Below are positions 17,588 through 47,037 of a DNA stretch of 47,037 nucleotides, in pieces. Source of the DNA: an uncultured Acetobacteraceae bacterium (GTDB lineage Bacteria > Pseudomonadota > Alphaproteobacteria > Acetobacterales > Acetobacteraceae); the NCBI GenBank assembly GCA_937873095.1, contig CALMVI010000078.1, forward strand, positions 1-47,037, written 5' to 3'. The number at the start of each line of letters is the position of its first letter. Position 1 is the stretch's first letter. Below the pieces are notes generated by a model. That model saw only the letters and a program-made list of their open reading frames with translations, was not told the origin of the DNA and did not search any database. Position numbers and translations under genes: made by a program.

Positions 17588-19738
17588 CTACCCGTGGAAG
17601 CTCAGCAGCGTGCCGGCGCCGTGGTCGGCCGACAAACTGAAACTGCTGCTGGTGACGCTGCCGGCGAACGTCTCGCGTCCCAGCACGGTCCCTGATCCGT
17701 CGAACAGCGTCAGCACGTGCCCCGACAGGCTGTCGGAGGCGACGTGCCTGCCGGTGAAATCCAGCGCATCCCCCGTTGTCCAGCCGGTGATCGTCCCCGA
17801 GATCAGCCCGACGCCCGCCGCGGTGAACGTGCCGTTGGCGCCGAACACCAGACCCACTGTCGAAGCCTCGCCCTGCGTCAGGACGATGTCGCCATTGGCC
17901 ACGCTCAGCAGTCCCGTGCCGTTGACCGGACCGAGGCAGGTCATGGTTCCGCCATTCGTGCCGATGCGGCCGAGATCGACGATGTTGCCTGCGCCCAGCA
18001 CGCCCTGGCCGATGATGGTGGATCCGGCCGCGAGCGTCAGCCCGTTGCTGACCGAAAGCGTGCCGCCCTGGCTCAGCACCACGGCGCCATGCACGGACGC
18101 CCCGCCGAACACCGAGAGCTTGCCGCCGGCAACGTCGATCGTCGCAGCGCCTGCGGTCGCGACCCCCTGGCCTGCCGTGCCGACCAGCAGCCCGCCCGCC
18201 GACAGGTGGGATCCTGTGCCGAGCGTCACGGTGCCGGTCGTGCCGACGGTCAGGAGTTGTGTCGTGAGCACGTCGCTGCTGCCGGCCAGCGACAGGCTGC
18301 CGAGGTTGGCTCCGGCGCCGCCCACCACGACCGACCCGGCACTGACCGTACCGCCACCAGACACGGCGAGCGCTCCAGCGCCGTGCGGCGCAATTTCGAG
18401 CGCCCCCGCAACGGACCAATCCGAACCGTTCAGAACGCTGACCATCGAAGTCAGGCCGCGGCCCGACTGGACGACAGCATCGGGCACTGTCTGCCCGGAC
18501 GAAGCGGCTACATGAACCGCCGCACCGTTGCTGATGGTCAGCGTCCCTGCGTCGGCAGCCCCGACCAGCATCTGCCCCGTTCCGTTCAGCACAGAGCCTG
18601 CTCCATCGACGGTCAGCGCGAATCCGGTTGCCCCGTCGATCGCCACCCCCGGCGCGTCGGCAGAAGCTGACGTCAGCGTCACCTGCGCGCCTTTCTCGGT
18701 GACGGTGTTCCCCTCCGTTTCGAGCAAGCCACCGCCGAGCCGCAATGCCGTTTGGGGCCCTGTAACGTCCAGCAGCCCGACTTCGACGCTCAGGGCCGCG
18801 CCGGCAGACTCAGCGCCTCGGTCGGTCACCGAGAGTGTGCCACCGTCCGAGACGGTGAGCACACCCTCGCGGATGCTGGCCTGTCCTTCGACCAGCGCGT
18901 GGCCACCGTCGATGCTGTCGCTACCGGAAAGGAATAATACCTGGCCGCCTTCGGCATTGCCAACGACCAGGGTGGAGCCGGAAGCGACCGACAGGGCTCC
19001 GAACACCTCCTCGAAGTTGAGCGGGCCGACAGTGCTGCCGATCTTCGAGACATCCGTTTCACCGACGATGATGCCGGCACTCCCCACGGTGAGCGTACCG
19101 CTCACGTCCAGCACCGCATCATCCTGCAGCGACACCGTGCCGGGCTCCAGCGTCATGTTGCCGTCAACCGCCCAATGCGCGCCCGTCAGGCCTGCTTCGG
19201 CGGAGACGAGCACTGCATCACCGGCGGCCGAGTAGCTGGTGACCCACGCGCCGGCCGAAGCGGTGAACGTTCCGGCCGTGTCTCCATTGTCGGGAAAGTC
19301 CCCGATGAGGAAGGTGCCGGCTGTGTTCAGCACGCCGCCGGATATCGTCAGCATGCCGCCGTCGTTGACCTGCACCGCAGTGCCCGAAACAGAGGACGCG
19401 TTGAGGACGCCGCCGTCCTGCAGCAGCGTGCCGCCATCGATGGTCACCGTGTCGGCGTTCAGGGTCGCGCCGCCGCTGAGCGCCAGCTGCCCGTCCACTT
19501 CGACGTGGGATACGCCCAGCGTGGCGCCGATTGCGTAGCCGGGGCCGGACGTGTTCGACACCGTCAGCGAGGCAAGGCCGGTCGCCGCGCCGTCGATCGT
19601 GCCGGACCCGGTCAGCTCCACGAGGTCGCCCGCGCCTGGCGGCGATGCGGCGGTGACGCCGTCGGTCACGTCGAACCAGTTGGCGGCCACCCCGAACGCA
19701 GTGGATGTGCCGCCCTGCCAGGAATACGTCTTGCCCAT
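17588..19738 (-). CDS. Beta-strand-repeat (adhesin-like) protein, paralogue A
   Basis: A 716-aa protein made almost wholly of short Gly/Ser/Thr/Val-rich strands with recurring units such as GGTLSVS, GSGTIDG, LTVGTTGTVTLGTGSHLSAGG, the pattern of extended beta-helix or beta-solenoid surface proteins. The N-terminus (YSWQGGTSTAFGVAANWFDV) recalls the tryptophan-containing start of such repeat proteins. There is no signal peptide and no autotransporter barrel, so a type I or other route would be needed if it is exported; no RTX nonapeptides are seen. Its N-terminal ~75 residues and C-terminal ~230 residues are strongly similar to the protein encoded at 21945-24335. Function unknown, probably surface or matrix. 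Confidence 0.75.
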   Translation of the reverse strand: MGKTYSWQGGTSTAFGVAANWFDVTDGVTAASPPGAGDLVELTGSGTIDGAATGLASLTVSNTSGPGYAIGATLGVSHVEVDGQLALSGGATLNADTVTIDGGTLLQDGGVLNASSVSGTAVQVNDGGMLTISGGVLNTAGTFLIGDFPDNGDTAGTFTASAGAWVTSYSAAGDAVLVSAEAGLTGAHWAVDGNMTLEPGTVSLQDDAVLDVSGTLTVGSAGIIVGETDVSKIGSTVGPLNFEEVFGALSVASGSTLVVGNAEGGQVLFLSGSDSIDGGHALVEGQASIREGVLTVSDGGTLSVTDRGAESAGAALSVEVGLLDVTGPQTALRLGGGLLETEGNTVTEKGAQVTLTSASADAPGVAIDGATGFALTVDGAGSVLNGTGQMLVGAADAGTLTISNGAAVHVAASSGQTVPDAVVQSGRGLTSMVSVLNGSDWSVAGALEIAPHGAGALAVSGGGTVSAGSVVVGGAGANLGSLSLAGSSDVLTTQLLTVGTTGTVTLGTGSHLSAGGLLVGTAGQGVATAGAATIDVAGGKLSVFGGASVHGAVVLSQGGTLSVSNGLTLAAGSTIIGQGVLGAGNIVDLGRIGTNGGTMTCLGPVNGTGLLSVANGDIVLTQGEASTVGLVFGANGTFTAAGVGLISGTITGWTTGDALDFTGRHVASDSLSGHVLTLFDGSGTVLGRETFAGSVTSSSFSLSADHGAGTLLSFHG

Positions 19739-19864
19739 GAGCCGCCTGCCCCGATCCGAAACGCGCCCGCAATGGGTGCAGCGGTTCACGGGAAAGTCAA
19801 CGCGCAGCAAACGCCTCGTTTACCGGCCGGCCGCAATTTGCGACGGCGTTTTGCGGGTGAAATC

Positions 19865-21944: not shown

Positions 21945-24335
21945 TCAACTGTGAAAGCTCAGCATGGTGCCAGTGCCGTGGTCGGCCGAAAGCGAGAAGT
22001 TGCTGCTGGTGTAGCTGCCGGCAAACGCCTCACGGCCCAGCACGCTGCCCGAGCCGTCGAACAGCGTCAGCACGTGGTTGGAGAAACTGTCCGACACGGC
22101 GCGCAGGCCGGTCAGGTCGAACGCGTCCCCGGTGGTCCAGCCGGTGACGCCGCCTGATGCCATGCCCAGGCCCGCCACGGTGATGGTGCCGTTGGCGCCG
22201 AACACCATGCCGACGGTCGCGGCCTCGCCATGGGTCAGTATCATGTCGCCGCCGCCCGCCACGCTGAGCAGCCCGGTCCCGTTCACCGGTCCCAGGCAGG
22301 TCATGGTGCCGCTGCCGCAGCCGATGCGCCCGAGATCGGCGATGTTGCCGGCGCTCAGCACGCCCTGGCCGATGATCGTCGAGCCTGCGGCCAGGGTCAG
22401 CGTGTTGCTGACCGACAGCGTGCCGCCCTGGCTGAGCACCACGGCGCCGTGCAGGGCGGCACCGCCGAACACCGCCAGCTTGCCGCCCGCGATGGCGAGC
22501 GAGCCAGAGCTGGCCGGGACGGACCCGTTCGCCGCCGCACCGAGCAGCAGCCCGCCCGCCGAGAGGTGGGAGCCTGCGCCGAGCGTGACCGTGCCGCCGC
22601 CGCTGACGGTGAGCAGCCCGGTGCTGAGAACGTCGCCCGCGCCGGCGAGCGACACGGCGCTCTGGACGGTGCCGGTGCCGCCGACCGAGACGAGCCCGGC
22701 CGTGACCGTGCCGGCCGACGACACGAGAAGCGATCCGGAGCCATGCTGGCCGATTGCCAGCAGCCCGCGCGTGGTCAGCGCCGCGCCCGACACCGCCAGC
22801 GTGCCGCCATCGGTCACCTGCGCCGCGGTGCCGGAGGAGGAGGACAGGGCGAACACGCCGCCGTCGATGGCCGCCGTGCTGAGCGCGTCCGAGACCAGCA
22901 TTCCGCCGGTCGCGGTCAGCGAGGCGGCGCCGGAGACCGTCAGCGTTCCGCCGTCCCTGACGCCCAGTACGGCCCCGACCGCGACGGTTGCGCCGGCGAT
23001 GGCGATGGCGCCGCCGATTGTGCCGAACCCGTCATTGGCAGGATCGGTGCCGATGGCGGCGTGCGCGCCGGCGCCGAAGGCGATGCTGCTGCCGGCGAAC
23101 CCGACCAGGCTGCCTGCATCGAAGACGGCGCCCGTGCCGGCCGCGCTTACGCTGTTGACGCCGCCCGCGATGCTCTGGTCGACCGACACGGTCTGCCCCG
23201 CGCCGTTCCACACGCCGCCGGCGCCCACCGTGATGGCGTTGGTGCCGCCGCCCGCGCCGAGCTCGGTGTAGTCCTGCACGTTCAGGGTCTCGTGGCTGAT
23301 GGCCAGGCTGCCGTTGCCGCCGCCGGTGCCAAGACTGAGGTAGCCGATCGTCCCCGATCCCGATCCCGCCGCGTAGGCGGTCATCTGCAGGGTGCCGTTG
23401 CCGGCGCCGCCGATGACGACCGTTCCGGCCGTCCAGGACTCGCTGGCACCCAGCGCCAGCGTGCCGGATGCACCCGCGGAGACGCCCAGCGTGGCGCTGT
23501 CGGTGCTCAGCGTGCCGCCGCCTGCGACCACGTCGCCCTGGCCGGTGTCGCCGATCAGCATGCCGCCCGACACCGTCATCGTGGCACCCAGCGACACCAG
23601 CGTGCCCTGGCCCGCGACGGAGGCGCCGGGCGCGGTGGTTCCGAGCACGAGGCCGGGGCCGCTGGTGAAGCTGTCCGCCTCGAGCTGCGCGCCCTGGCCG
23701 AGCGCCAGCGAGCCCTGGCCGGACACGCCGAGCGCCAGCCCGCCATACAGCGTGGCGCTGCCGCCGCTGCCGATGGCCATGGCGCCCCGACCGCCCTGCA
23801 TGCCGACCGCCAGCTGCCCGCCCATGTCGCAGGCGAGCGTTCCGCCCGCCACCAGCAGCGTGCCGGCTTGGCCGGTGCCGATCCCGACCTGCACGCCGCC
23901 GCCGGCGGTGTAGACGGACGCGCCGGCCTCGATCTGCAGGCTGGAGACGAGCCCGGCGGAGCCGGAAACCGAGATCTGCAGCGCGTCGGCGCCGGCGCTG
24001 AGCGCGCTGCCCGACTGCATGACCAGCAAACCGCCATCCACGCCCAGAGTGTCGGCCGTGACGCCCGATCCGTCGGTCAGCGCCAGCGTGCCGCCGACCT
24101 CGATCGACGAGACGTCCAGCGTGGCGCCGAGCGCGTAGCCGCCGGAGGTGGTGGCCGAGACGGAGAGCGCGGACAGCCCGGTGGCGGTGCCGTCGATCGT
24201 TCCGGACCCGGTCAGCTGCACCGCGTCCCCTGCGCCGGGCGGCGAGGTGGCCGGAGTGGCGTCGGTGACGTCGAACCAGTTCGACGCGTCGCTGAAATCG
24301 GTGGAGGTGGCGCCTAGCCAGGAATAAAGCGTCAT
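21945..24335 (-). CDS. Beta-strand-repeat (adhesin-like) protein, paralogue B
   Basis: A 796-aa relative of the protein at 17588-19738. It shares the N-terminal WFDVTD...SPPGAGD..LTGSGTIDG block and the C-terminal ~230 residues, ending in the common FSLSADHG(T/A)GT(M/L)LSFH tail, while the middle is a different set of Gly/Ala/Thr-rich strands. No signal peptide or barrel domain is visible. The conserved C-terminus could be a secretion signal or a capping domain; this is inference. Together with paralogue A it encloses the Cys/His-cadherin gene on the opposite strand. Confidence 0.75.
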   Translation of the reverse strand: MTLYSWLGATSTDFSDASNWFDVTDATPATSPPGAGDAVQLTGSGTIDGTATGLSALSVSATTSGGYALGATLDVSSIEVGGTLALTDGSGVTADTLGVDGGLLVMQSGSALSAGADALQISVSGSAGLVSSLQIEAGASVYTAGGGVQVGIGTGQAGTLLVAGGTLACDMGGQLAVGMQGGRGAMAIGSGGSATLYGGLALGVSGQGSLALGQGAQLEADSFTSGPGLVLGTTAPGASVAGQGTLVSLGATMTVSGGMLIGDTGQGDVVAGGGTLSTDSATLGVSAGASGTLALGASESWTAGTVVIGGAGNGTLQMTAYAAGSGSGTIGYLSLGTGGGNGSLAISHETLNVQDYTELGAGGGTNAITVGAGGVWNGAGQTVSVDQSIAGGVNSVSAAGTGAVFDAGSLVGFAGSSIAFGAGAHAAIGTDPANDGFGTIGGAIAIAGATVAVGAVLGVRDGGTLTVSGAASLTATGGMLVSDALSTAAIDGGVFALSSSSGTAAQVTDGGTLAVSGAALTTRGLLAIGQHGSGSLLVSSAGTVTAGLVSVGGTGTVQSAVSLAGAGDVLSTGLLTVSGGGTVTLGAGSHLSAGGLLLGAAANGSVPASSGSLAIAGGKLAVFGGAALHGAVVLSQGGTLSVSNTLTLAAGSTIIGQGVLSAGNIADLGRIGCGSGTMTCLGPVNGTGLLSVAGGGDMILTHGEAATVGMVFGANGTITVAGLGMASGGVTGWTTGDAFDLTGLRAVSDSFSNHVLTLFDGSGSVLGREAFAGSYTSSNFSLSADHGTGTMLSFHS

Positions 24336-37030: not shown

Positions 37031-37797
37031 TCAGAGGCGCATGCCGCCGGAGGCTTCGATCCTTTGCCCGTTCATCCAGCGGTTCTCCGCCGCAACGAGA
37101 GCGGCCGCGATCGGACCGATGTCGGAGATGCGGCCGGCACGGCCGAGTGCGGTGTTGGCCGAAACCATGCGGTTGACCTCCGGATTGTCGCGCACCATGC
37201 CGCCGCTGAAATCCGTCTCGATTGCCCCTGGCGCCAGCGTGTTGGCGGTGATGCCGCGCGACCCGAGTTCGGCGGCCAGGTAACGGGTGAACACCTCTAT
37301 CCCGCCCTTCATCATGGCGTAGGCGGACGAGCCCGGAAACGAGAAGCGTGCAAGTCCGCTCGAGACGTTCAGGATGCGCCCACCGTCGGCCAGCAGCGGC
37401 AACAGGCGTTGCGTGAGGAAAAACGGTCCCTTGAGATGCACGTTCATCACCTCGTCGAACTCGGCCTCCGTGGTCCCGGCGATCGAGTTGTGCAGGCTGG
37501 TGCCGGCATTGTTCACCAGCACATCGAATTTTGTGCGGCCCCAAATGCGTTCGAGCGTCTCGGCCAAGCGTGCGGCGAACTCAGGAACGTGGCATTGGCG
37601 CCAACGTCGAGCTGAAGCGCCGCGGCACGTCGGCCGGCCGCCTCAACGGTGCGAATGACAGCCTCCGCCTCGTCCTGGCGCGACCGCCAGGTGATCACGA
37701 CGTCCGTGCCCGCCCGCGCGAGGTGCTCGGCCATGCTGCGACCGAGGCCGCGGCTTCCGCCAGTGATCAGGGCGATGGTCTGTGTCGTCTGGCTCAT
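37031..37797 (-). pseudogene. Short-chain dehydrogenase/reductase, single frameshift
   Basis: The gene begins at 37797 (GGAG at eight bases) with the NAD(P)-binding motif TGGSRGLGRSMAEHLA. It continues in one frame to LQLDVGANATF (~37587), after which the second frame carries FAARLAETLERIWGRTKFDVLVNNAGTS, NVSSG, the catalytic YAMMK, GITANTLAPGAIETDF and GGMRL. One base, probably a C in TTCC(C)TG near 37585, is missing. Without it the protein would be a normal ~255-aa SDR. The gene is divergent from a LysR regulator. It could be a true mutation or a sequencing error. Confidence 0.8.
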
Positions 37798-37899
37798 AAG
37801 GAGTGCTCCGTTGCGTGCGACGGGACTTGGCCGTTCTGCGCTTGCCGGACAATCGTCTCACCCTTGCCATCACCGTTCCATCCAGGCGAACAATCGCCG

Positions 37900-38790
37900 A
37901 TGGATCGGCTGTGCGCGATGCGTCTTTTCGTGCGGGTGGTGGAGCGGCGCAGCTTTCGTGCTGCCGCCTCCGACCTCGGCATGCCCCGGTCGAGCGCCAC
38001 CGCCGGCATCAAGGCGCTGGAGGCAGCCCTCGGCACAACGCTGCTGCGCCGCTCCACACGCCATGTCGGGCCGACTGAGGAGGGGGAAGGCTACTACCGC
38101 CATTGTGTCGCCGTGCTCGGCGAAATGGACGCGGTCGAGACGGCGTTGCGGGGCCGTGTGCCCACGGGCACCTTGCGGGTCGACACCAGCGCGCAGTTCG
38201 CCCGCACCTGGCTGCTGCCCGCTCTTCCCGATTTCCTCTCCAGGCATTCCGGGCTGCGTTTCCACCTCAGCGAGGGCGACCGCTTGGTAAACCTCGTCGG
38301 CGAGGGTGTCGACTGCGTGATCCGTGGCGGAGAGACGACGGAAGGCGATCTGATGGTGCGCCGCCTGGGTGCGCTGCCGGAGATCACGTGCGCAAGCCGC
38401 ACCTATCTCGCGCGGCACGGCGAACCGCGCTCGCCAGACGATCTGGAAGGGCACGAGATGGTCGGCTTTGTCTCCTCGCGAACCGGAGCGGTGCTGCCGC
38501 TGGAGTTCACCATCGAAGGGCAGACGCGCGAATACACCCTGCCTGTGCGGGTGAGCGCCACCGGTGCGGACAGCTGTGCCACCCTCGCGCAACTGGGCTT
38601 TGGACTGGTGCAGCTGCCGCGCATCCGCTTTGCCGACGCCTTGCAGTCGGGAGCGATGGTCGAAGTGCTGCGCCCGTATCGGCCGCCGCCGCTGCCGATC
38701 TCGCTGCTGTACCCGCGCCGCCTCGTGCCGGCGCGGCTTCGCGTGTTCATCGACTGGCTTGAAGAAGCGCTCGTTCCTGCAATGGTATGA
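37900..38790 (+). CDS. LysR-family transcriptional regulator
   Basis: A 296-aa LysR-type regulator. The winged helix-turn-helix covers ~1-60 (MRLFVRVVERRSFRAAASDLGMPRSSATAGIKALEAALGTTLLRRSTR-type pattern), followed by the inducer-binding fold (TGTLRVDTSAQFARTWLLPALPDF, then VIRGGE and a second Rossmann-like lobe). It is transcribed away from the SDR gene with 102 bases between the starts, the common arrangement in which such regulators control the divergent gene. The inducer is unknown. Confidence 0.93.
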   Translation: MDRLCAMRLFVRVVERRSFRAAASDLGMPRSSATAGIKALEAALGTTLLRRSTRHVGPTEEGEGYYRHCVAVLGEMDAVETALRGRVPTGTLRVDTSAQFARTWLLPALPDFLSRHSGLRFHLSEGDRLVNLVGEGVDCVIRGGETTEGDLMVRRLGALPEITCASRTYLARHGEPRSPDDLEGHEMVGFVSSRTGAVLPLEFTIEGQTREYTLPVRVSATGADSCATLAQLGFGLVQLPRIRFADALQSGAMVEVLRPYRPPPLPISLLYPRRLVPARLRVFIDWLEEALVPAMV

Positions 38791-39008: not shown

Positions 39009-41555
39009 ATGCGAAAATTGCGGGACCTGCTCGGCCCAAACCCTCTGCTGAGCGTGTGCATGGTGGTGACGACTGTGCTCGCCATACTCACGGCACTCAA
39101 GGTGACCCCGTCAGTTCCGCCGTCCCTGGGCTACCTCCTGCTCGGCCTGCTTGTCGCTTCCGCCAATGTGTATTGGGGCTCGACGGTCGTTCGACTGTGG
39201 CCGCGCGTCGTCGGTGGCGCCGGCGGCTATTGGCAACTCCGGCCGCGTTCGAAGCTGCGTCTTGCGAATGGCGTACCAAAGGGGATCCCTGCGCTTGATG
39301 AGCTGAACCGGATGACCGGTCTGGATCTGGTCAAGACCGAAGTGACCACGCTGATCCAGCGATTGCAGGTCGAGTTGGCGCGGCAGGAAAGAGGTGCGCG
39401 AACGACGCCGATCTCCCTGCACATGGTGTTCACGGGATCGCCCGGCACCGGAAAGACGGCGGTTGCGAGGCTGTATGGCGCCGTGCTGCGTGATCTCGGC
39501 GTGCTGGAGAAGGGTCACCTGATCGAAACGGACCGTGCAGGGCTTGTCGCCGGCTACATCGGCCAGACAGCCCTGAAGACGAAGAAGGTCATAGCAGACG
39601 CCCTCGATGGCGTACTATTCATAGACGAGGCCTATTCCCTGATCGACAAGGGCGGCACCGGGCAGGATTTCGGGCGGGAAGCAATCGACACGCTGTTGAA
39701 GGAGATGGAGGACAAGCGGGATAGGCTGGTCGTCATCGTCGCGGGCTATCCGGATCCGATGCGCCAGTTCGTGGCAAGCAATCCCGGCTTGCCTTCGCGT
39801 TTCACCAAGACGCTGTCGTTCGACAACTACGAAGCAGCCGAACTGGTGGAGATCACCCGGTCGATGGCGCAACGCGACGGTTTTCGCCTGTCCCACGAAG
39901 CCGACACGATCCTGCGAAACTACTTCGAGCGGGCCAGGACATCGGCAAGCTTCGCCAACGCCCGCACCGCGCGAACGGTTCTCGAGCGCGCTCGCGAGGC
40001 GCAGGCCGTGCGGGTGGCGCCGCTGATCGCCAGCGATGGCGACCTCAACGCGTTGACCGTGTCCGACATCCAAGCGGCAATCACGACGAGAGCCGCCGCG
40101 ATCGGCCAGGGCACCAGCGCGGTGGACGAATTACGGGCAATGATCGGCCTGGACTCGGTCAAAGCCGAGATCGGAACGCTGGTCTCCCGGCTGAAAGTTG
40201 AAGCCGCGCGGCGGGAGCGTGGACTGCCAGTGGCACCCGTCTCCCTTCACATGGTTTTCGCCGGACCGCCAGGCACCGGCAAGACCGTGGTGGCGCGGCT
40301 TTACGGCGCCATCCTGCGCGATCTCGGCGTGTTGGAGAAGGGCCATGTCATCGAAACGGACCGTGCGGGGCTCGTCGCCGGGTATGTCGGGCAGACGGCG
40401 CTCAAGACACGGGAGAAGATAGCTGACGCACTGGACGGGGTTTTGTTCATCGACGAAGCCTACACGCTCACCGGGCAGGGAGACGCGGGTGACACCTTCG
40501 GCCGGGAAGCCGTCGATACCCTGCTGAAGGAGATGGAGGACAAGAGGGATCGGCTGGTTGTCATCGTCGCGGGCTATCCGGATCCGATGCGCAAGTTCCT
40601 GGCCAGCAATCCGGGTCTGCCCTCGCGTTTCACCAAGTCCGTGCCCTTCAACAACTACGAGGTGGACGACCTCGTCGCCATCACCGGCACAATCGCGCAG
40701 CGTGACGGGATGCGCGTGTCCCTGGATGCCGATCAGACCCTGAGACGCTTCTTCGAGCGAGCCCGCATGATGCCGGACTTTGCAAACGCCCGCACCGCGC
40801 GAACGCTTGTCGAGCGCGCGCGAGAGGCGCAGGCGGCGCGGATCGCGCCGCTCATGGAGACTGCTCACGTGAGCCTGGACGAGTTGACCCTGACCGACAT
40901 CGAAACGGCTGCTCACGCAAGCATGGATGCACCGGCAGAACAGAACTCCACAAGCATCGGCACAGGGTTCTTCGTTCACGCCGACGGCTACGTCGTGACG
41001 AACGCGCACGTCATCGCCGGTCATGAGAGTCCAAAAGTCGTCTGCGGCTCCGGCGAGCCGGTCGAGGCGCTGGTCGCCGCGCGGGACGAAAAAAACGACC
41101 TGGCCCTGCTGAAGGTCGCGCTCGCTCACGATCATGTCGCAAGGCTGCGCACGGGCGTGAAAGTCGGCGAGGAACTGGCGGCTTTCGGCTACCCGCTCTT
41201 CGGCAGGCTTTCAGCCGCCGGCAACTTCACTTTGGGAAACGTGTCGGCCCTGGCGGGAATGCAAAATGACAGCAGACATATCCAGATCACCGCGCCGATA
41301 CAGCCGGGCAATAGCGGCGGTCCGGTCGTGGACCGTGCGGGCAACCTGATCGGAGTCGCCGTCTCGGGTCTGGGCGCGCACGAAAAAGGCGCGGCACAGA
41401 ATGTCGGTTTCGCCATCAACATCAACACGCTGACGGCGTTCCTCGAGGCACACGGCGTGTCCTATTTGGCCGAAACGAGCGAAGACCCGCTTCGAAACGT
41501 GGAGCTTGCGGACAAGGCGCGGGCGATGTCCGTGTTGATCATCTGCGAGACCTGA
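39009..41555 (+). CDS. Membrane-anchored double CbxX/CfxQ AAA+ ATPase fused to a trypsin/HtrA-type protease
   Basis: An 848-aa protein. Two hydrophobic segments (~12-30 and ~39-56) would anchor it with both ends on one side. AAA+ module 1 spans ~96-360 with Walker A GSPGTGKT (143-150), Walker B VLFIDEA (202-208) and an arginine in PSRF (R264). Module 2 spans ~373-635 with GPPGTGKT (419-426), VLFIDEA (478-484) and R540. Both are of the CbxX/CfxQ/SpoVK/EccA type. A serine protease domain follows (~645-815) with a complete triad: H667 (TNAHVIAG), D697 (EKNDLALL), S769 (GNSGGPVV). If the ATPases face the cytoplasm, so does the protease. Two small anchored proteins are encoded directly downstream. 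The role is unknown; an ATP-driven protease or conflict system is inferred. Confidence 0.88.
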   Translation: MRKLRDLLGPNPLLSVCMVVTTVLAILTALKVTPSVPPSLGYLLLGLLVASANVYWGSTVVRLWPRVVGGAGGYWQLRPRSKLRLANGVPKGIPALDELNRMTGLDLVKTEVTTLIQRLQVELARQERGARTTPISLHMVFTGSPGTGKTAVARLYGAVLRDLGVLEKGHLIETDRAGLVAGYIGQTALKTKKVIADALDGVLFIDEAYSLIDKGGTGQDFGREAIDTLLKEMEDKRDRLVVIVAGYPDPMRQFVASNPGLPSRFTKTLSFDNYEAAELVEITRSMAQRDGFRLSHEADTILRNYFERARTSASFANARTARTVLERAREAQAVRVAPLIASDGDLNALTVSDIQAAITTRAAAIGQGTSAVDELRAMIGLDSVKAEIGTLVSRLKVEAARRERGLPVAPVSLHMVFAGPPGTGKTVVARLYGAILRDLGVLEKGHVIETDRAGLVAGYVGQTALKTREKIADALDGVLFIDEAYTLTGQGDAGDTFGREAVDTLLKEMEDKRDRLVVIVAGYPDPMRKFLASNPGLPSRFTKSVPFNNYEVDDLVAITGTIAQRDGMRVSLDADQTLRRFFERARMMPDFANARTARTLVERAREAQAARIAPLMETAHVSLDELTLTDIETAAHASMDAPAEQNSTSIGTGFFVHADGYVVTNAHVIAGHESPKVVCGSGEPVEALVAARDEKNDLALLKVALAHDHVARLRTGVKVGEELAAFGYPLFGRLSAAGNFTLGNVSALAGMQNDSRHIQITAPIQPGNSGGPVVDRAGNLIGVAVSGLGAHEKGAAQNVGFAININTLTAFLEAHGVSYLAETSEDPLRNVELADKARAMSVLIICET

Positions 41556-41656
41556 TCCGACACGGCAACGGCTTGCTCTCTGCAGAACGGTATGGAGTGC
41601 GTCCGCGAACCGTTATAGTCTCCTGTAACCAAGTGGGTGTTCGGACCGTCAGGACG

Positions 41657-42238
41657 ATGTCGGGAGACGAGAAGGCGCACGCGTTCCAACCGCAGACGGC
41701 CCGCGCGCCTGCCGGCTTGCCCGGCGGCTGGGCCGCGGTACTTATTGCTATAATATCGGCGTTGATCGCCGGTGTGGCGGCACGGCCCAAGGTTGAAGGA
41801 CCAGGCGGCGTCGTTCCGTCGGACGTCAGCAGGCTGTCTGAAGTGGCACCGGACGAGATCGGGGCCGCCCTGCAGACTTTGGATGCGTCGCCTGAACAGA
41901 TCGCGCAGTTCCTTGCCCGGCAACCCTGCCGGCGCAAGCTCGCCTGGGTCGTCCTCGGCCACCTGCCGAACCGGCCGGCCGGCCGGATCAGGCTGCAGTC
42001 GGGCAAATACATCTCGCCGGCTTTCGACCTGACGGATGTGCCGGTCCGAGTGGCGTTGCCGTATCCCGCGCCATATCCAGCCGGCCAAGGCACGATCGCG
42101 GTTGTTGGCGCCTCCTCGGATGCCAGCGTAGCGCTGACGCCGCCTTGGCAAGTGGCGGGCCACCAAGGATTGCAGTCGCGAGAGGTGACGTGGACCCCTG
42201 TTGACGGCTGTCTGGCCGCGAACCGGACGGCGGATTGA
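41657..42238 (+). CDS. Unknown membrane-anchored protein, first partner of the AAA-protease gene
   Basis: A 193-aa protein. A short polar N-terminus is followed by one membrane helix (~24-42), a segment with SDVSRLSEVAPDEIGAALQTL that looks helical, and a beta-rich remainder with two cysteines (C91 and C185) that could form a disulfide if it faces the periplasm. ATG 41657 is close behind AGGA; an upstream in-frame TTG (41573) would add 28 residues. No family is recognised. It begins 101 bases after the AAA-protease gene, and its stop shares a base with the next start. Confidence 0.65.
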   Translation: MSGDEKAHAFQPQTARAPAGLPGGWAAVLIAIISALIAGVAARPKVEGPGGVVPSDVSRLSEVAPDEIGAALQTLDASPEQIAQFLARQPCRRKLAWVVLGHLPNRPAGRIRLQSGKYISPAFDLTDVPVRVALPYPAPYPAGQGTIAVVGASSDASVALTPPWQVAGHQGLQSREVTWTPVDGCLAANRTAD

Positions 42239-43026
42239 TGCGGCGTCTCGCAACCAAGCTCGCCTTCGTGCACCGCACCCTTTGGCAACGCGACCACATC
42301 TATCGATGGGCCGTCTTGCTCGGGCCGCCCCCAGTCATCGGCGTCGCCATCGCCGCGCTGTGTCTCGCGGTGATCCCCACGATCTGGACTGGCACATCGA
42401 CTCCGACCGGCGGCGCGCCGTGGGCCCACTGGACCAGGCCGTTTGCGCGGCAGACACAGCCGTTCGTCGAGTCCACTCTGCCGTTTCCCGCACGCGACGC
42501 GAGCGGCCGCTACAGAGGGTTGCAGACGGGCTGGCGGGGCCAGGTGCATTCGATCTCAATCGATGCGACGCGGGACGTCAACGTCAACGGGTTGGTGCTG
42601 GCCAGCTTCACCTTGGATCAGACCGACATTCCGATGCAGCGCACCGTGGATGCCGGGCCGGCGGCGGGACTTTTTGTTGCCGCTGCGCAGAGCTTCTTCG
42701 TCGCCCAGATACCAGGCCTGTATGCGTTTTCTGCCAGGCTCTCCCGAGCCGGGACGCAATCGGCCGACTGTCTCGTACGACTGGGTTCATTTGGGCACCC
42801 GATGATACGCAACATCAACCTCAACACGGAGAGCCACGCCGTGCTGACCTACCCGACAACGCAGTTTCGGCTCGCACCCGGGTTGTTCAGGGTGGGCGTG
42901 GGTGTCGGGTGCTGGCGAGGCGACCGCGTCCTGGGGGCTGGCAGCCTGACCCTGATGGTTCGCACGCCCGGAGAGGCGGCCATGCGGCCTGCTACCGCGT
43001 GGGAGCTGATGAGGCCAGCGTCGTGA
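42238..43026 (+). CDS. Unknown membrane-anchored beta-rich protein, second partner
   Basis: A 262-aa protein with one helix (~24-48) and a long, mostly beta domain after it. The strand FVAQIPGLYAFSARLSR (~154-170) faintly recalls PA14-like or carbohydrate-binding sandwiches, and two cysteines (C178, C225) lie in the domain. The ATG overlaps the previous stop (TGATG), so the two proteins are coupled and probably work together. The assignment to a fold is tentative. It is the last gene before the prophage-like segment. Confidence 0.65.
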   Translation: MRRLATKLAFVHRTLWQRDHIYRWAVLLGPPPVIGVAIAALCLAVIPTIWTGTSTPTGGAPWAHWTRPFARQTQPFVESTLPFPARDASGRYRGLQTGWRGQVHSISIDATRDVNVNGLVLASFTLDQTDIPMQRTVDAGPAAGLFVAAAQSFFVAQIPGLYAFSARLSRAGTQSADCLVRLGSFGHPMIRNINLNTESHAVLTYPTTQFRLAPGLFRVGVGVGCWRGDRVLGAGSLTLMVRTPGEAAMRPATAWELMRPAS

Positions 43027-43216: not shown

Positions 43217-43639
43217 CTAATGCCGTTCAAAAATGTTCTCTATCAGCCAGCGGTAAAGCGGTTCCGCCAGCCATAACGCCGCACTGCCGAATACCCCAGT
43301 GGCAAATAGGAGGCCGGCGGCACGAGCCTTCAGAGCTGCAATATCATCAATAGGCCGCTGCAACGCTCCAACGGATGTTGCCAAGTCTTGGACGCAGCGA
43401 TCCTCGCTCGCACTGCGTATACGCAAACTCTCGATATCGTGGTGAGCGAGCCAAAATAGTCGGTCAAACTTTTCTTCCATCTGGCGGTGCTCATGTCTGA
43501 GTATGGTCAAGTCAGATCTCACCAGGTCATAAAGCTGGTCTGCTTGAGCCTGCCGCAAGTCTACTATCCCGTGCAAACCACGAACTTCGCTCAGCACTTC
43601 ACCCATTTGCTGAAATAGAAGGTTGACATCATCCTTCAT
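43217..43639 (-). CDS. Phage coiled-coil/transmembrane protein (DUF1515-like)
   Basis: A 140-aa protein with a long charged helical region (~1-100, including RSDLTILRHEHRQMEEKFDRLFWL) and one C-terminal hydrophobic helix (~107-127). The layout, like the DUF1515-type proteins found near tail genes of alphaproteobacterial prophages, suggests a membrane-associated phage product, possibly holin- or spanin-related; this is inference. It starts 22 bases after the tail spike gene and is the last gene of the prophage on this side. Confidence 0.6.
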   Translation of the reverse strand: MKDDVNLLFQQMGEVLSEVRGLHGIVDLRQAQADQLYDLVRSDLTILRHEHRQMEEKFDRLFWLAHHDIESLRIRSASEDRCVQDLATSVGALQRPIDDIAALKARAAGLLFATGVFGSAALWLAEPLYRWLIENIFERH

Positions 43640-43661
43640 CTTGGAACACCCCCGCTGACAT

Positions 43662-45929
43662 TCAGCTGATGCTTAGAACTCCATTGTTGTTCCACACTTG
43701 CCCAGACCCGTTGGCAGGTTTGCTGGTAGGGAGCCCGGTGAGGAAGAGTCCACCGCTGGGTGTCAGCCACAAAGCCCCTTTGGGCTGAAGTCCAAGCCCG
43801 CCAGCGTTGGTCGTGACCAAGCTTAAGTTACCGGGACTTGCGTTTTGCAAAGTGATCCAATTCGTTGCTCCCACCACGCTCGTTAACGTAGCAAGGTTTC
43901 CTCCTCCGGCTGTCCCTCCAGCGGCACTGATTGTTAAGTTACCGCCTTTGGTTTGCAGAACACCCCCAACGACCGAGTCCGTACCGTCAAAACAGAGAGT
44001 AGGAGCATTACCTGTCGTCGCGGGTTGATGGCGAATGAGGTTTGCCGCCGAAGCCACGTTGTTAACTCGAAGCAGGGGGTTGCCTGCGGAGTTGCACACT
44101 ACAAAGTCTTTCATGACGGAAAGGCCGGCTGGCGTTCCAGCACTTCCCGGAGAAACGAACGAAATGTAATTACTTGCTTCAAGAGGAGTGGGATCGACAA
44201 AAGCCGTATTTAATGGCACATTGCTTAAGTTCAATCCATAAGCTGTTAAACCAACGGTGCCGTTCGCCCCGACAATCTCAATGACGGTCGCCAGGTCTTC
44301 GAAGTGGCACCCGCTTATTATGTTGCTGGATGAGTTCGCTGTGCTATTAAACTGGAACGCAACGTCTTGACTATTTCCTCCGGTCGGACCGCCGACAAAA
44401 TTACATCCAGAGACATGAAGGTTAGACACGTTAAGCAGATTGAAAAAGGTTTCTGGCGAATTAGGCCCTAAGTCTCGAGTGATATCGAGATTTGACACGA
44501 ACACGTCGGTGACGTTGGAAAGCTGCATCGTGCCCAGATTTGTATTAACCTCGCCGCCTGTGACCCAAAGCCCCAGCAACATCGCGCGTCCGATGACGTA
44601 GCCCGCCCATCTCGTCTCGTCCGTCTGCGTGAAAAAATAATCTGCCGCTACCACGAGCGGGTTGTTGAGGTAAATTCCTTCACAGTATCCTGTTTGCAAG
44701 ACAACCGTGTTTCCGTAGTAGGCCTGCAACCCGCTTATTCGTGTGTCGATAGATCCGTTTAGCTCGATGACCGCGGAACTTGTGGCCCCCGAAGGTGCAG
44801 GTGGTCCAAACCAAGAAAGACCATCGAGTTGAGAGCTCCAGCAATTATTGAGAACTAAGCCGCGTTGGAACGTCTGTGGAAACGGCGCAACTCCATTCGC
44901 AGCGTTCGGATAGCCAAATAGCTCTACGTCTTGAACGACTGTTGTTACGTACCCAAAAGCTGTTGAAGGAGGATATGTGAGTCGAATCGCGCACGCAGTC
45001 TGCCCGGCCATGCAGTCGGCGTAGATTGATAACGATGAGACTACGACTTTGTTAAACAAGTTGGCAGGCGCGAAGTCGAAGCCGATCCCGGTATGTTGCA
45101 GATGGATGCGAGTTTGACCTCGCCCTGCCCCCCTGAGATGAACGGCTTTCCCGTTGATGGTAAGCGGGCTCATCAACCAGTAATCGCCGGCAGGTACAAA
45201 CACCTGACCGCCCGTAACTGCCAGTTGCGCAAACGCGGCATTGAATGCCGAACTACAATCCGCGCCTCCTACGGACGCACCAAAGTCAATGACGTTTATG
45301 ACATCGAGACTACGGGCACTGAGAGTCCGGGGAAAGGCGCCTGTCACCGCAACCGAGGCGAGACTGGCATCCCCGGCCACAGGTGCTGTGACCTGACCGT
45401 TGCCATTCAACGAAGCAAACCCACCCGCCGGAATTTTTGCCGCAAGCGCTGCAACGCTTCCCTGTGCGGACCCAAGTCCCTGGGTTAAATTGGCAAGACT
45501 AGTCGAAACGCTTGGATCTGTGCTGGCACTTACGATGCCGGTGGAGCCAATGGCTACGTTCGAGCCGGCGGAAAACAGCGAGTGGAGAGCCGAGATTGGC
45601 AGCCGTTTTGGCGTTCCTCCCGCGTTGAGAATGACCTCGTCGGTGGGTGCAAAGGCCGTCTCCTGAACAAAACTACCGTGATCGCCACCCGTTGCTGCTA
45701 GGGAGCTCCCCAAGACGGTTAAACCCAGGCCGACATTCAAGGCTTCTGGGCCTCCAGGCCCAAGCGACGCCCTTCCCAATATACTCGGGCTAGGAACCTC
45801 GATGATTTGTTGAGTGCCGCTTAGCAGTTCAGCAACAGTAACTTCCCGAGTGACGCCCGCTTGACTGACTGGGATCTCGTCTTGTGCTCCGCTTTGCTGC
45901 GCGCTCGGCAACTCAGGAATTGTGGGCAT
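43662..45929 (-). CDS. Phage tail spike/fibre with pectate-lyase-like beta-helix
   Basis: A 755-aa protein. The N-terminal ~200 residues are a phage-fibre type attachment region (PTIPELPSAQQSGAQDEIPVSQ...). From ~209 the VINVIDFGASVGGADCSSAFNAAFAQL start and VFVPAGDYWL (~235-250) are the Pectate_lyase_3 signature that begins a right-handed beta-helix, which continues with repeated N/S-rich strands. The C-terminus GSGQVWNNNGVLSIS is a common phage tail ending. Such spikes bind and often cut host surface polysaccharide and set host range. AGG precedes the ATG closely. Confidence 0.88.
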   Translation of the reverse strand: MPTIPELPSAQQSGAQDEIPVSQAGVTREVTVAELLSGTQQIIEVPSPSILGRASLGPGGPEALNVGLGLTVLGSSLAATGGDHGSFVQETAFAPTDEVILNAGGTPKRLPISALHSLFSAGSNVAIGSTGIVSASTDPSVSTSLANLTQGLGSAQGSVAALAAKIPAGGFASLNGNGQVTAPVAGDASLASVAVTGAFPRTLSARSLDVINVIDFGASVGGADCSSAFNAAFAQLAVTGGQVFVPAGDYWLMSPLTINGKAVHLRGAGRGQTRIHLQHTGIGFDFAPANLFNKVVVSSLSIYADCMAGQTACAIRLTYPPSTAFGYVTTVVQDVELFGYPNAANGVAPFPQTFQRGLVLNNCWSSQLDGLSWFGPPAPSGATSSAVIELNGSIDTRISGLQAYYGNTVVLQTGYCEGIYLNNPLVVAADYFFTQTDETRWAGYVIGRAMLLGLWVTGGEVNTNLGTMQLSNVTDVFVSNLDITRDLGPNSPETFFNLLNVSNLHVSGCNFVGGPTGGNSQDVAFQFNSTANSSSNIISGCHFEDLATVIEIVGANGTVGLTAYGLNLSNVPLNTAFVDPTPLEASNYISFVSPGSAGTPAGLSVMKDFVVCNSAGNPLLRVNNVASAANLIRHQPATTGNAPTLCFDGTDSVVGGVLQTKGGNLTISAAGGTAGGGNLATLTSVVGATNWITLQNASPGNLSLVTTNAGGLGLQPKGALWLTPSGGLFLTGLPTSKPANGSGQVWNNNGVLSIS

Positions 45930-45990
45930 ACTACCTACCTGTTTGTACTTGCAGAAATATTCCAGCTGACGCTACGCTATTCATTGTAGA

Positions 45991-46470
45991 TCATGTGGTG
46001 ATGGGCGAACCAACCTGATCTGTTATCGCAAGACCGTTCTGGTCTGTTATCGCAGAGTTAGGCAATATCGAAACGCTCAATGCAGCCACAGGCAAGTACA
46101 CCGTTCTCGAAATGGCTCTACCGTTGTTGGTGGTGCTCGTGACAGTAACCGAGTAGGTAGTTCCGGCTTGACCGCTTGTAAGCCATAGAATGGCTTGTGT
46201 GCCCTCAGCATTGGACGATTGGAGGGTGAGGTCGCCAGTCTGGTTGGGCGATATAATGACGTCTAACGTCGCGACAGCGTCTCCGACGTCTCCCGCCAGT
46301 ATATCGGAGTAGTCAACGACGTAGTCCAAGGTGTCGCCAGGATCTTTGACTGGCCACGCCAATATGGATGGGAACGTCTGCAACGATCCTCGTGGGATAG
46401 GTCCGCAGCAATCGACTGTAACCACTCGTGCAGTCGTTATTTGCCATCTGAAATTTGCTTGTGTCGCCAC
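45991..46470 (-). CDS. Phage fibre-tail adaptor-like protein, GTG start
   Basis: A 159-aa protein with the pattern WPVKDPGDTLDYVVDYSDIL, DAVATLDVIISP, then an Ig-like beta segment (LQSSNAEGTQAILWLTSGQAGTTYSVTVT) typical of small phage proteins that lie beside tail fibres. The GTG at 46470 follows AAGG at about eight bases. Its position between the glycine-rich gene and the tail spike fits a structural role at the tail tip. Confidence 0.75.
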   Translation of the reverse strand: MATQANFRWQITTARVVTVDCCGPIPRGSLQTFPSILAWPVKDPGDTLDYVVDYSDILAGDVGDAVATLDVIISPNQTGDLTLQSSNAEGTQAILWLTSGQAGTTYSVTVTSTTNNGRAISRTVYLPVAALSVSILPNSAITDQNGLAITDQVGSPITT

Positions 46471-46558
46471 ATCATCACCTTGGAATTAGCAGAATATTAG
46501 CTATTTGGGTGAAAGACCCCGGAGTGCTTGTTTTAGAGAGGAATGACCACAAGCGGAT

Positions 46559-47037
46559 TCACCACTCGACAATCACCAGGCCGGCTCCGCCCTGACCACC
46601 CAAACCGCTGCCGATACCGCCGGAGCCACCTCCGCAGACCCCCGGTGCGTTGCGGCCGTTTGCTGAAGGGGTAAGCGCACCAGATACGCTTAAGGCTCCT
46701 CCTGCGGCATAGGCGGAGCCACCCGCGCCACTCAGCCAGATGCCGCCGGCGCCGAACGGATCGCCACCGGAACCGCCCTCAATTGCGAAACCCGACCCAA
46801 AGCCCATGCCCGGCGCCGTCCCCCCGCTTCCGGGCAAACTCCCGGTACCGTTCCCTCCCGATTGCCCACCAGTCGCCGACGCCAAACTCCCAAAACTTGA
46901 GGTTCCCCCGCCAGCTTCCGAGCCTGCGCCGCCGTTTCCGACACTGACAACGTAGCTCTGTCCCGGCTCCACGTTGTAGAACCCCTCGCAGAATCCCCCG
47001 CCCGCGCCGCCGCCCCCCGCGCTGCCAAAACCCCCCC
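46559..47037 (-). CDS. Glycine-rich phage tail protein (5' end outside the window)
   Basis: The C-terminal ~160 residues of a protein that enters from the right edge. It is dominated by glycine-rich runs with the phage-tail motif GQSYVVSVGNGGAGSEAGGG and the ending GGAGLVIVEW, common in receptor-binding tail proteins with polyglycine domains. The GTG inside at 46972 is probably not the true start, since the frame stays open to the window edge with the same composition. Confidence 0.7.
   Translation of the reverse strand, partial: GGFGSAGGGGAGGGFCEGFYNVEPGQSYVVSVGNGGAGSEAGGGTSSFGSLASATGGQSGGNGTGSLPGSGGTAPGMGFGSGFAIEGGSGGDPFGAGGIWLSGAGGSAYAAGGALSVSGALTPSANGRNAPGVCGGGSGGIGSGLGGQGGAGLVIVEW

Follow-up and report, generated by a model that had tools for sequence, protein, structure and literature searches.

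A tandem AAA+ ATPase-trypsin fusion with a predicted membrane hairpin and two recurring partner genes in an uncultured Acetobacteraceae bacterium

The window analyzed here is a stretch of 47,037 nucleotides from an uncultured Acetobacteraceae bacterium, one entire 47-kb contig (CALMVI010000078.1) of the 3.69-Mb assembly GCA_937873095.1. Towards its end lie three genes, all on the forward strand in the order AAA-P2-P3, of which the first encodes a fusion of two AAA+ ATPase modules with a trypsin-type protease behind two transmembrane (TM) segments, and the others encode proteins designated P2 and P3. The features of this trio are as follows.

39009..41555 (+): 2TM-AAA-AAA-trypsin fusion, 848 amino acids; open reading frame (ORF) with Pfam matches to AAA (two), AAA_lid_6 (two) and Trypsin_2
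39027..39191 (+): predicted N-terminal membrane hairpin of the fusion, residues about 7-61; hydropathy and charge count, with tblastn homologues in 7 other trio loci
39291..40094 (+): AAA+ module 1, residues 95-362; Walker A GSPGTGKT, Walker B LFIDE, pore-loop Tyr
40119..40925 (+): AAA+ module 2, residues 371-639; Walker A GPPGTGKT, Walker B LFIDE, pore-loop Tyr
40959..41357 (+): Trypsin_2 domain, residues 651-783, triad H667/D697/S769; Pfam E 1.1e-27 and serine protease alignment
41657..42238 (+): P2, with a TM helix at residues about 24-42, a conserved outer domain at residues 57-185, and cysteines C91 and C185; frame, start, alignments, AlphaFold2 model and cysteine spacing
42238..43026 (+): P3, with the N-terminal motif F.H..LW.rD..YR.A, one TM helix, a predicted PA14-like outer domain at residues 76-262, and cysteines C178 and C225; frame, start, alignment A3, AlphaFold2 and PDB fold search
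42265..42327 (+): P3 motif, residues 10-30, presumably on the cytoplasmic side; hhalign

The reading frame of the fusion begins with ATG and is uninterrupted across 848 residues. Hydropathy places its hydrophobic segments near residues 7-30 and 38-61; both outer sides of this hairpin have positive flanks and the loop is nearly uncharged (one K/R), so both ends are expected to be inside. The pore-loop stretches, LVAGYIGQT and LVAGYVGQT, retain the tyrosine in both AAA modules, and both modules contain VAGYP and NPGLPSRF stretches; the sensor-2 pattern as tried was matched in module 2 only. With its AAA domain, AAA_lid_6 and GY sensor-1 signature, the fusion belongs to the SpoVK/CbbX/EccA clade of AAA+ proteins. 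The trypsin part resembles serine proteases of alphaproteobacterial plasmids through to the final residues (best identity 45.8%), and the protease appears to be intact. There is no hydrophobic segment between the AAA part and the trypsin domain, which should therefore be cytoplasmic, in contrast to periplasmic HtrA. The likeliest start of P2 is the ATG at 41657, 101 nucleotides past the fusion stop, and that of P3 is the ATG at 42238, so placed that the two genes overlap as TGATG. ORF, hydropathy, Pfam and motif analyses confirmed the fusion as described in the initial annotation (848 residues, two membrane segments, two AAA modules and an intact triad), and frames, hydropathy and AlphaFold2 bore out its description of P2 and P3 as a coupled pair, each with one helix and a beta-rich, two-cysteine domain.

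When the family was scanned with the fusion (299 genomes, E<=1e-80), matches were found in 11 genomes, including that of the window. Seven are AAA proteins of the hairpin type, every one with a P3-type neighbor and six with P2 as well (the window, G090, G027, G184, G112 and G001); in the seventh, G068, P3-like parts occur in two genes and a P2 match is absent. The remaining four (G009, G014, G048 and G188) are bigger multi-AAA proteins; none shows a hydrophobic segment within the initial 100 residues of its frame, and the frame of G188 runs past the contig end so that its N-terminus is out of view. One further trio lies in G719, which belongs to another family, and one in L029, a metagenome-assembled genome. 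Joint tblastn found counterparts of all three elements, the hairpin N-terminus, P2 and P3, in each of the seven other trio loci, and the recurrence of the trio is therefore more than chance. Six single-AAA trios have the order P2-AAA-P3, and in five of them the AAA frame runs 4 nucleotides into that of P3; a plain operon is present in Endobacter medicaginis CECT 8088. In G090, P2-P3 are on the opposite strand, facing the AAA gene; in G184, a single open frame spans P2 and AAA; frame breaks affect the AAA gene of G719, close to its end, and the P3 gene of G112. The flanks include ATP synthase genes, an RND pump, a Tle1-like gene and others (named mostly by eye). Partners that recur and flanks that differ between loci do not fit the pattern which the initial annotation had named as telling against a distinct system, that is, homologues without the partners in fixed housekeeping contexts.

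The P3 profile (E<=0.001) matched 9 of 397 genomes of the family, 3 of 385 of the class and 1 of 398 of the phylum, the last being the window itself; the searches drew on 1,996 genome slots in all, with the same genomes often redrawn, so they speak for these samples and not for absence elsewhere. The nine family matches comprise six trios, two mobilization-type loci (G068 and G393) and one likely chance match, in G395, which was dropped (E 8.6e-4, inside an 853-residue AsmA-looking frame). The class matches fall in the window, in G719 and, as weak domain matches, in G640, where the second domain match, with three internal stops, was dropped and the first retained as an example of the module. 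The P2 profile matched 3 of the 385 class genomes (the window, G719 and G676), each time next to a hairpin AAA gene and a P3-type gene. In viral contigs, neither the P2 profile nor the fusion found a relative; among plasmids, the P3 of the window had no match at E<=0.01 and the P2 of the window had one, in Methylobacterium. The P2/AAA/P3 system is rare and scattered, and, judged from these comparisons, its conserved core is the motor with P2 and P3, not the fusion.

The history of the protease is best seen in G090, the closest relative (71% identical), in which the trypsin has decayed. A stop follows module 2; 29 residues of the trypsin start are left (55% identical, with the histidine in TNAHV), a tail-like end is present, and the middle, with the aspartate and the serine, is gone. 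Since this remnant lies at the same junction, the fusion is older than the split between the window and G090, was lost later in G090, and is not an assembly chimera of the window. By tblastn, the trypsin region was found in 1 of 14 related loci, the decayed remnant of G090, and was not detected in the other six trio loci. The protease is, as far as the alignments tell, a rare and secondary add-on, intact in the window only, among what was searched, and the earlier view of the trypsin as a defining part of the system is not supported.

The tandem arrangement was examined with a tree of 29 AAA modules (leaving out one partial module of G188, the split gene of plasmid pACRY04, the second Mesorhizobium plasmid and G676). 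Ten modules from eight trios form one clade (100/99), within which module 1 of the window pairs with module 1 of G090 (96/92) and module 2 with module 2 (95/92), so the tandem predates the split of these two. The three Methylobacterium modules cluster with each other (100/100), indicating a separate AAA duplication there. A wider hairpin-type group comprises 15 modules (100/96), with the Mesorhizobium module outside it.

The outer domains of P2 and P3 are mainly beta in AlphaFold2 models. Outside the helix, a cysteine pair is kept at a spacing of 47 in all seven full-length P3 proteins compared (the frame-broken P3 of G112 being left out of this count and of alignments A2 and A3) and at a spacing of 94-95 in all seven P2 proteins compared; these pairs may form disulfides. 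P2 and P3 probably extend beyond the inner membrane. The five P3 models have mean pLDDT values of 76.8, 72.3, 51.7, 38.6 and 36.2. The best one matched PA14-type lectin domains in Foldseek (E 1.1e-06, probability 1.00) and gave VIA Z values of about 10-13 for PA14-type domains, the best being an anti-sigma-factor domain, 6qe7 (Z 13.0, rmsd 2.9, 142 aligned). The outer part of P3 is thus predicted to fold like PA14 domains. Searches of PDB sequences with the profiles gave best E values of 0.46 (P3) and 3.4 (P2). P2 and P3 were rejected as relatives of each other (hhalign 0.2%), and a match of P2 to the Pycsar effector PycTM (E 0.028 and 0.039, in 1 of 5 members) missed the cut-off and was taken as chance.

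P3-like outer domains recur in proteins of secreted type, namely plasmid-type proteins with a signal-like start and a FlgO/CsgG protein. The latter (L046 7464-8609) joins a FlgO/CsgG-type domain to a P3-like outer domain, and is preceded by an uncharacterized protein of 420 residues without a Pfam match. The G640 protein with a P3-related domain has a weak SH3 match alongside and nothing else.

Methylobacterium carries a related version: a Methylobacterium bullatum record (L054) and G676 (L061) encode P2, a 2TM-AAA protein, a 2TM-AAA-AAA protein and tandem P3-motif proteins, with three of the latter downstream of two membrane AAA genes in L054 (7658-11774). The tandem proteins start with the P3 motif (HGSLWYEDPWYRLAW and similar), followed by a membrane helix. 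Two of them were scanned: PG_binding_1 was found in one (E 4.2e-07), and in the other a Sel1 match that fell short of the cut-off. The homology of the Methylobacterium P2 is firm (hhalign 99.3), and the Methylobacterium motif aligns with that of the plasmid-type A6 (hhalign 87.3).

Five loci are of mobilization type: G068 and G393 (contigs with relaxase genes), pACRY04 (an Acidiphilium plasmid) and two Mesorhizobium plasmids. All five show the same gene order: a type IV coupling protein (T4CP) gene, directly after it the AAA gene, then a short gene for a membrane protein and one more gene. In G068, G393 and pACRY04, the two genes after AAA match the P3 N-terminus (hhalign 95.1) and the P3 outer domain (94.6); in Mesorhizobium, the likeness of the short gene to the motif is loose and was seen by eye; the outer domain gives a moderate match with A3 (56.5) and none with A5 (0.4). 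P2 was not detected in the five loci (tblastn E<=0.01). Taking these loci with those of Methylobacterium, the P3 motif, as aligned, recurs with exchanged outer parts, in Methylobacterium beside P2 and in the mobilization-type loci in split form.

On pACRY04 (NC_009470.1; L057 9281-22942), an island that carries Tn3 and IS256 transposases together with a metal transporter interrupts the membrane AAA gene of this conjugative plasmid. Many Streptomyces plasmid records contain 'beta-helix repeat' proteins whose AAA-matching part resembles the SpoVK/CbbX/EccA clade; one of these (L062 827-4171) has two AAA modules at its C-terminus.

Upstream of the trio in the window, a short-chain dehydrogenase (SDR) gene (37031-37797, reverse strand) is spread over two overlapping frames and is apparently frame-broken; the LysR frame beside it (37531-38790) retains both LysR domains. 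Downstream is a prophage edge (43217-46972, reverse strand) with tail spike, gp77 fiber-tail adaptor and tail-fiber genes. The initial annotation had set the locus between decayed genes and a prophage edge; the prophage edge was found, and decay was seen for one gene, that of the SDR. The GC content is 0.554 for 43217-47037, 0.636 for the fusion and 0.681 for the window. Elsewhere in the window, two long glycine- and serine-rich frames (17588-19810 and 21945-24335, reverse strand) look similar to each other and, by eye, like autotransporters.

An ATP-driven membrane machine that is regulated by, or acts on, envelope-facing partners, with proteolysis added, is the most likely interpretation of the trio. 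The AAA+ machine would be anchored in the membrane and would form a unit with two single-pass proteins that place cysteine-paired domains in the periplasm, the one of P3 being PA14-like. The N-terminal motif of P3, on the cytoplasmic side, would probably be where the AAA ring, presumably a hexamer, makes contact or takes hold, and P2 and P3 would monitor or retain a target in the envelope. Responding to these partners, the ring would spend ATP to pull or remodel a target in the membrane or envelope. The version in the window, with its doubled ring and the trypsin behind it, could cut threaded substrates, coupling unfolding to cleavage. On balance it is probable, with ample room for doubt, that the AAA+ machine works with P2 and P3 as one unit whose ring pulls an envelope target and whose fused trypsin cuts what is threaded. 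A broader proposal is offered tentatively, as possible rather than probable: the proteins may belong to an unnamed transmembrane AAA+ signaling family in which the motif H..LW..D..YR.A docks swappable periplasmic parts (PA14-like, peptidoglycan-binding or Sel1-like, and split secreted forms) to the ring, in chromosomal settings with P2 and in mobilization operons with a coupling protein, and which here became an ATP-driven serine protease, reinventing the layout of FtsH.

The fusion and the decaying copy in a relative show how an AAA+ protein of chaperone type can acquire a protease and lose it again. The P2/AAA/P3 operon is a defined and testable module for how signals or forces might pass through the inner membrane, and its chromosomal and plasmid-type versions are connected by one short motif.

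Several observations weigh against the favored interpretation. The Mesorhizobium hairpin AAA module pairs with a module of G048, in whose protein no hairpin was detected (98/91); this makes it less likely that the membrane type arose only once. The fusion may also be transient: the family scan gave only G090 as a second fusion, and that one is decayed; no plasmid record of the 174 with a fusion match (E<=1e-40) and no phage record of the 11 (E<=1e-20) covers 80% of the fusion, the phage matches reaching <=60% of it and lying inside residues 56-601, the AAA part, among ten of the 11 rows listed; and viral contigs, searched with a few peptide patterns, held no intact fusion. For P3, pLDDT exceeds 70 in just two of the five models, the Foldseek TM-scores of the PA14-type rows are low (0.33-0.41 by query length) and Pfam PA14 is matched in none of six members (E<=5); the last two findings indicate that the likeness to PA14 is one of fold rather than family. 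P2 has no recognizable fold (best Foldseek E 0.062, best VIA Z 4.5). The positive-inside signal around the P3 helix is modest, the charge pattern is reversed in the two Methylobacterium proteins counted, and the P3 motif aligns with Methylobacterium over a short stretch (33 columns; hhalign 51.6 to A3).

The main rival to the favored reading is that AAA, P2 and P3 form a non-proteolytic chaperone that builds or dismantles an envelope complex, much as characterized clade members do, the trypsin being a passenger heading for loss. Among the seven other trio loci, G090 has a decayed trypsin and the remaining six have none that was detected, and characterized members of the clade are dedicated chaperones with no link to peptidases, as far as the accessible part of a 2023 preprint extends (PMC10659427); yet the frame in the window is intact over 848 residues and includes the full triad and the C-terminal tail common to related serine proteases. 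Overall, this chaperone reading seems rather unlikely. It is less likely still that the AAA/P3 pair originally controlled the T4CP or its substrates as an accessory of conjugation or secretion and that the chromosomal copies kept such a role. The AAA gene directly follows the T4CP gene in the mobilization-type loci (5/5), where the positions of the P3 parts are filled, but no T4CP was noticed next to the eight trios (by eye, on contigs that are partly short), P2 is undetected in the five loci, and the P3-like match of Mesorhizobium is weak to A3 and absent to A5.

A phage-defense or conflict system, in which the protease would be an effector released once infection is sensed at the envelope, is the least supported reading and seems very improbable. 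The sporadic distribution, the adjacent prophage and the lower GC content of the fusion relative to the window would fit it, as would the AAA+ ATPase/trypsin combinations of proposed conflict systems (PMC7159879, in the part available). Against it, PADLOC (E<=1e-5) matched none of ten picked flanking genes (nine from five relatives, one from the window) and matched the fusion itself only at the level of domains; no MoxR, vWA or VMAP was found among the Pfam matches listed for P2, P3 or the flanking genes scanned; and the protease is not conserved along with the system. The IetAS defense system pairs IetA with a subtilase, IetS. The fusion scored 39 with the IetA equivalog model, for which the cut-off is 510, and no subtilase was matched in P2 or P3 among the Pfam matches listed, the rest of the neighborhood not having been searched for one. 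The initial annotation had envisaged an ATP-fueled membrane protease that senses the envelope through its partners for quality control or phage defense; the membrane AAA+ protein with an apparently intact protease stands, as does the view of the partners as components of the system that probably point outward, and the defense role or defense-island setting found no support.

Known labels were tried and rejected for the fusion. Its score with the SpoVK model (TIGR02881), 522.4 against a cut-off of 422.95, is the sum of two modules, and single-AAA relatives score 249.3, 245.4 and 263.1. Summing likewise yields the EccA total of 479.2 (cut-off 466.65; single-AAA relatives 246-249), the best stretch being positions 272-542 of the 557 in the model, and the N-terminal half of EccA is unmatched. 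In the same genome there is no match to the type VII proteins WXG100, whose profile was positive in just 2 of 14 controls, or EccB, which was found in no control either. With the model for CbbX, the Rubisco activase (TIGR02880), the fusion scores 450.5, below the cut-off of 459.25 even with two modules, and the genome holds a separate CbbX (509.3). It is not HtrA/DegP (degP model 106.1 vs 416.2, PDZ absent among 25 of 27 Pfam matches listed) and not FtsH (FtsH model 26.9 vs 1008, M41 absent among the same matches). Literature searches, which covered few subscription journals, returned no description of such a fusion or system.

RsgI anti-sigma factors are anchored in the membrane by a single helix, and PA14 lectins bind sugars and have a calcium-binding aspartate pair. 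P3 shares with PA14-like anti-sigma factors (6qe7, 6qdi) the predicted fold and the single-helix anchor, but its inner part is a short motif and its partner is an AAA+ ATPase. The fusion has the Trypsin_2 domain and triad in common with HtrA/DegP and with alphaproteobacterial Trypsin_2 proteases, and the tail in common with the latter; unlike in both, the protease sits behind AAA modules. Combinations of AAA+ ATPases with trypsin-type peptidases have been proposed as conflict systems, but those in the portions available of PMC7159879 and PMC10907252 use other AAA types and other partners. The VMAP and MoxR-vWA ternary systems share with the fusion an AAA+ ATPase plus a trypsin-type peptidase (PMC7159879), whereas their AAA proteins are of another clade, the fusion is membrane-anchored by prediction, and vWA and VMAP are absent in the genes scanned.

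In FtsH, an N-terminal two-helix anchor is followed by an AAA motor and a C-terminal protease in the cytoplasm. The fusion has in common with its own clade the AAA domain with AAA_lid_6, the AGY and NPGLPSRF stretches and the pore-loop tyrosine, and differs in adding a membrane hairpin, tandem modules, a peptidase and the partners P2 and P3. The accessible text of the 2023 preprint reports no evidence of peptidase fusions or interactions in this clade, which it places as sister to FtsH (PMC10659427); with Trypsin_2 in the same frame, the fusion is an exception to that absence, which is a reported observation and not a formal criterion. In its two-helix anchor, AAA motor and C-terminal protease the fusion resembles FtsH and other membrane AAA proteases, with a topology deduced from sequence, but FtsH is a zinc protease, whereas the fusion has a serine protease and two AAA modules and belongs to the sister clade, as if an FtsH-like layout had been assembled from other parts.

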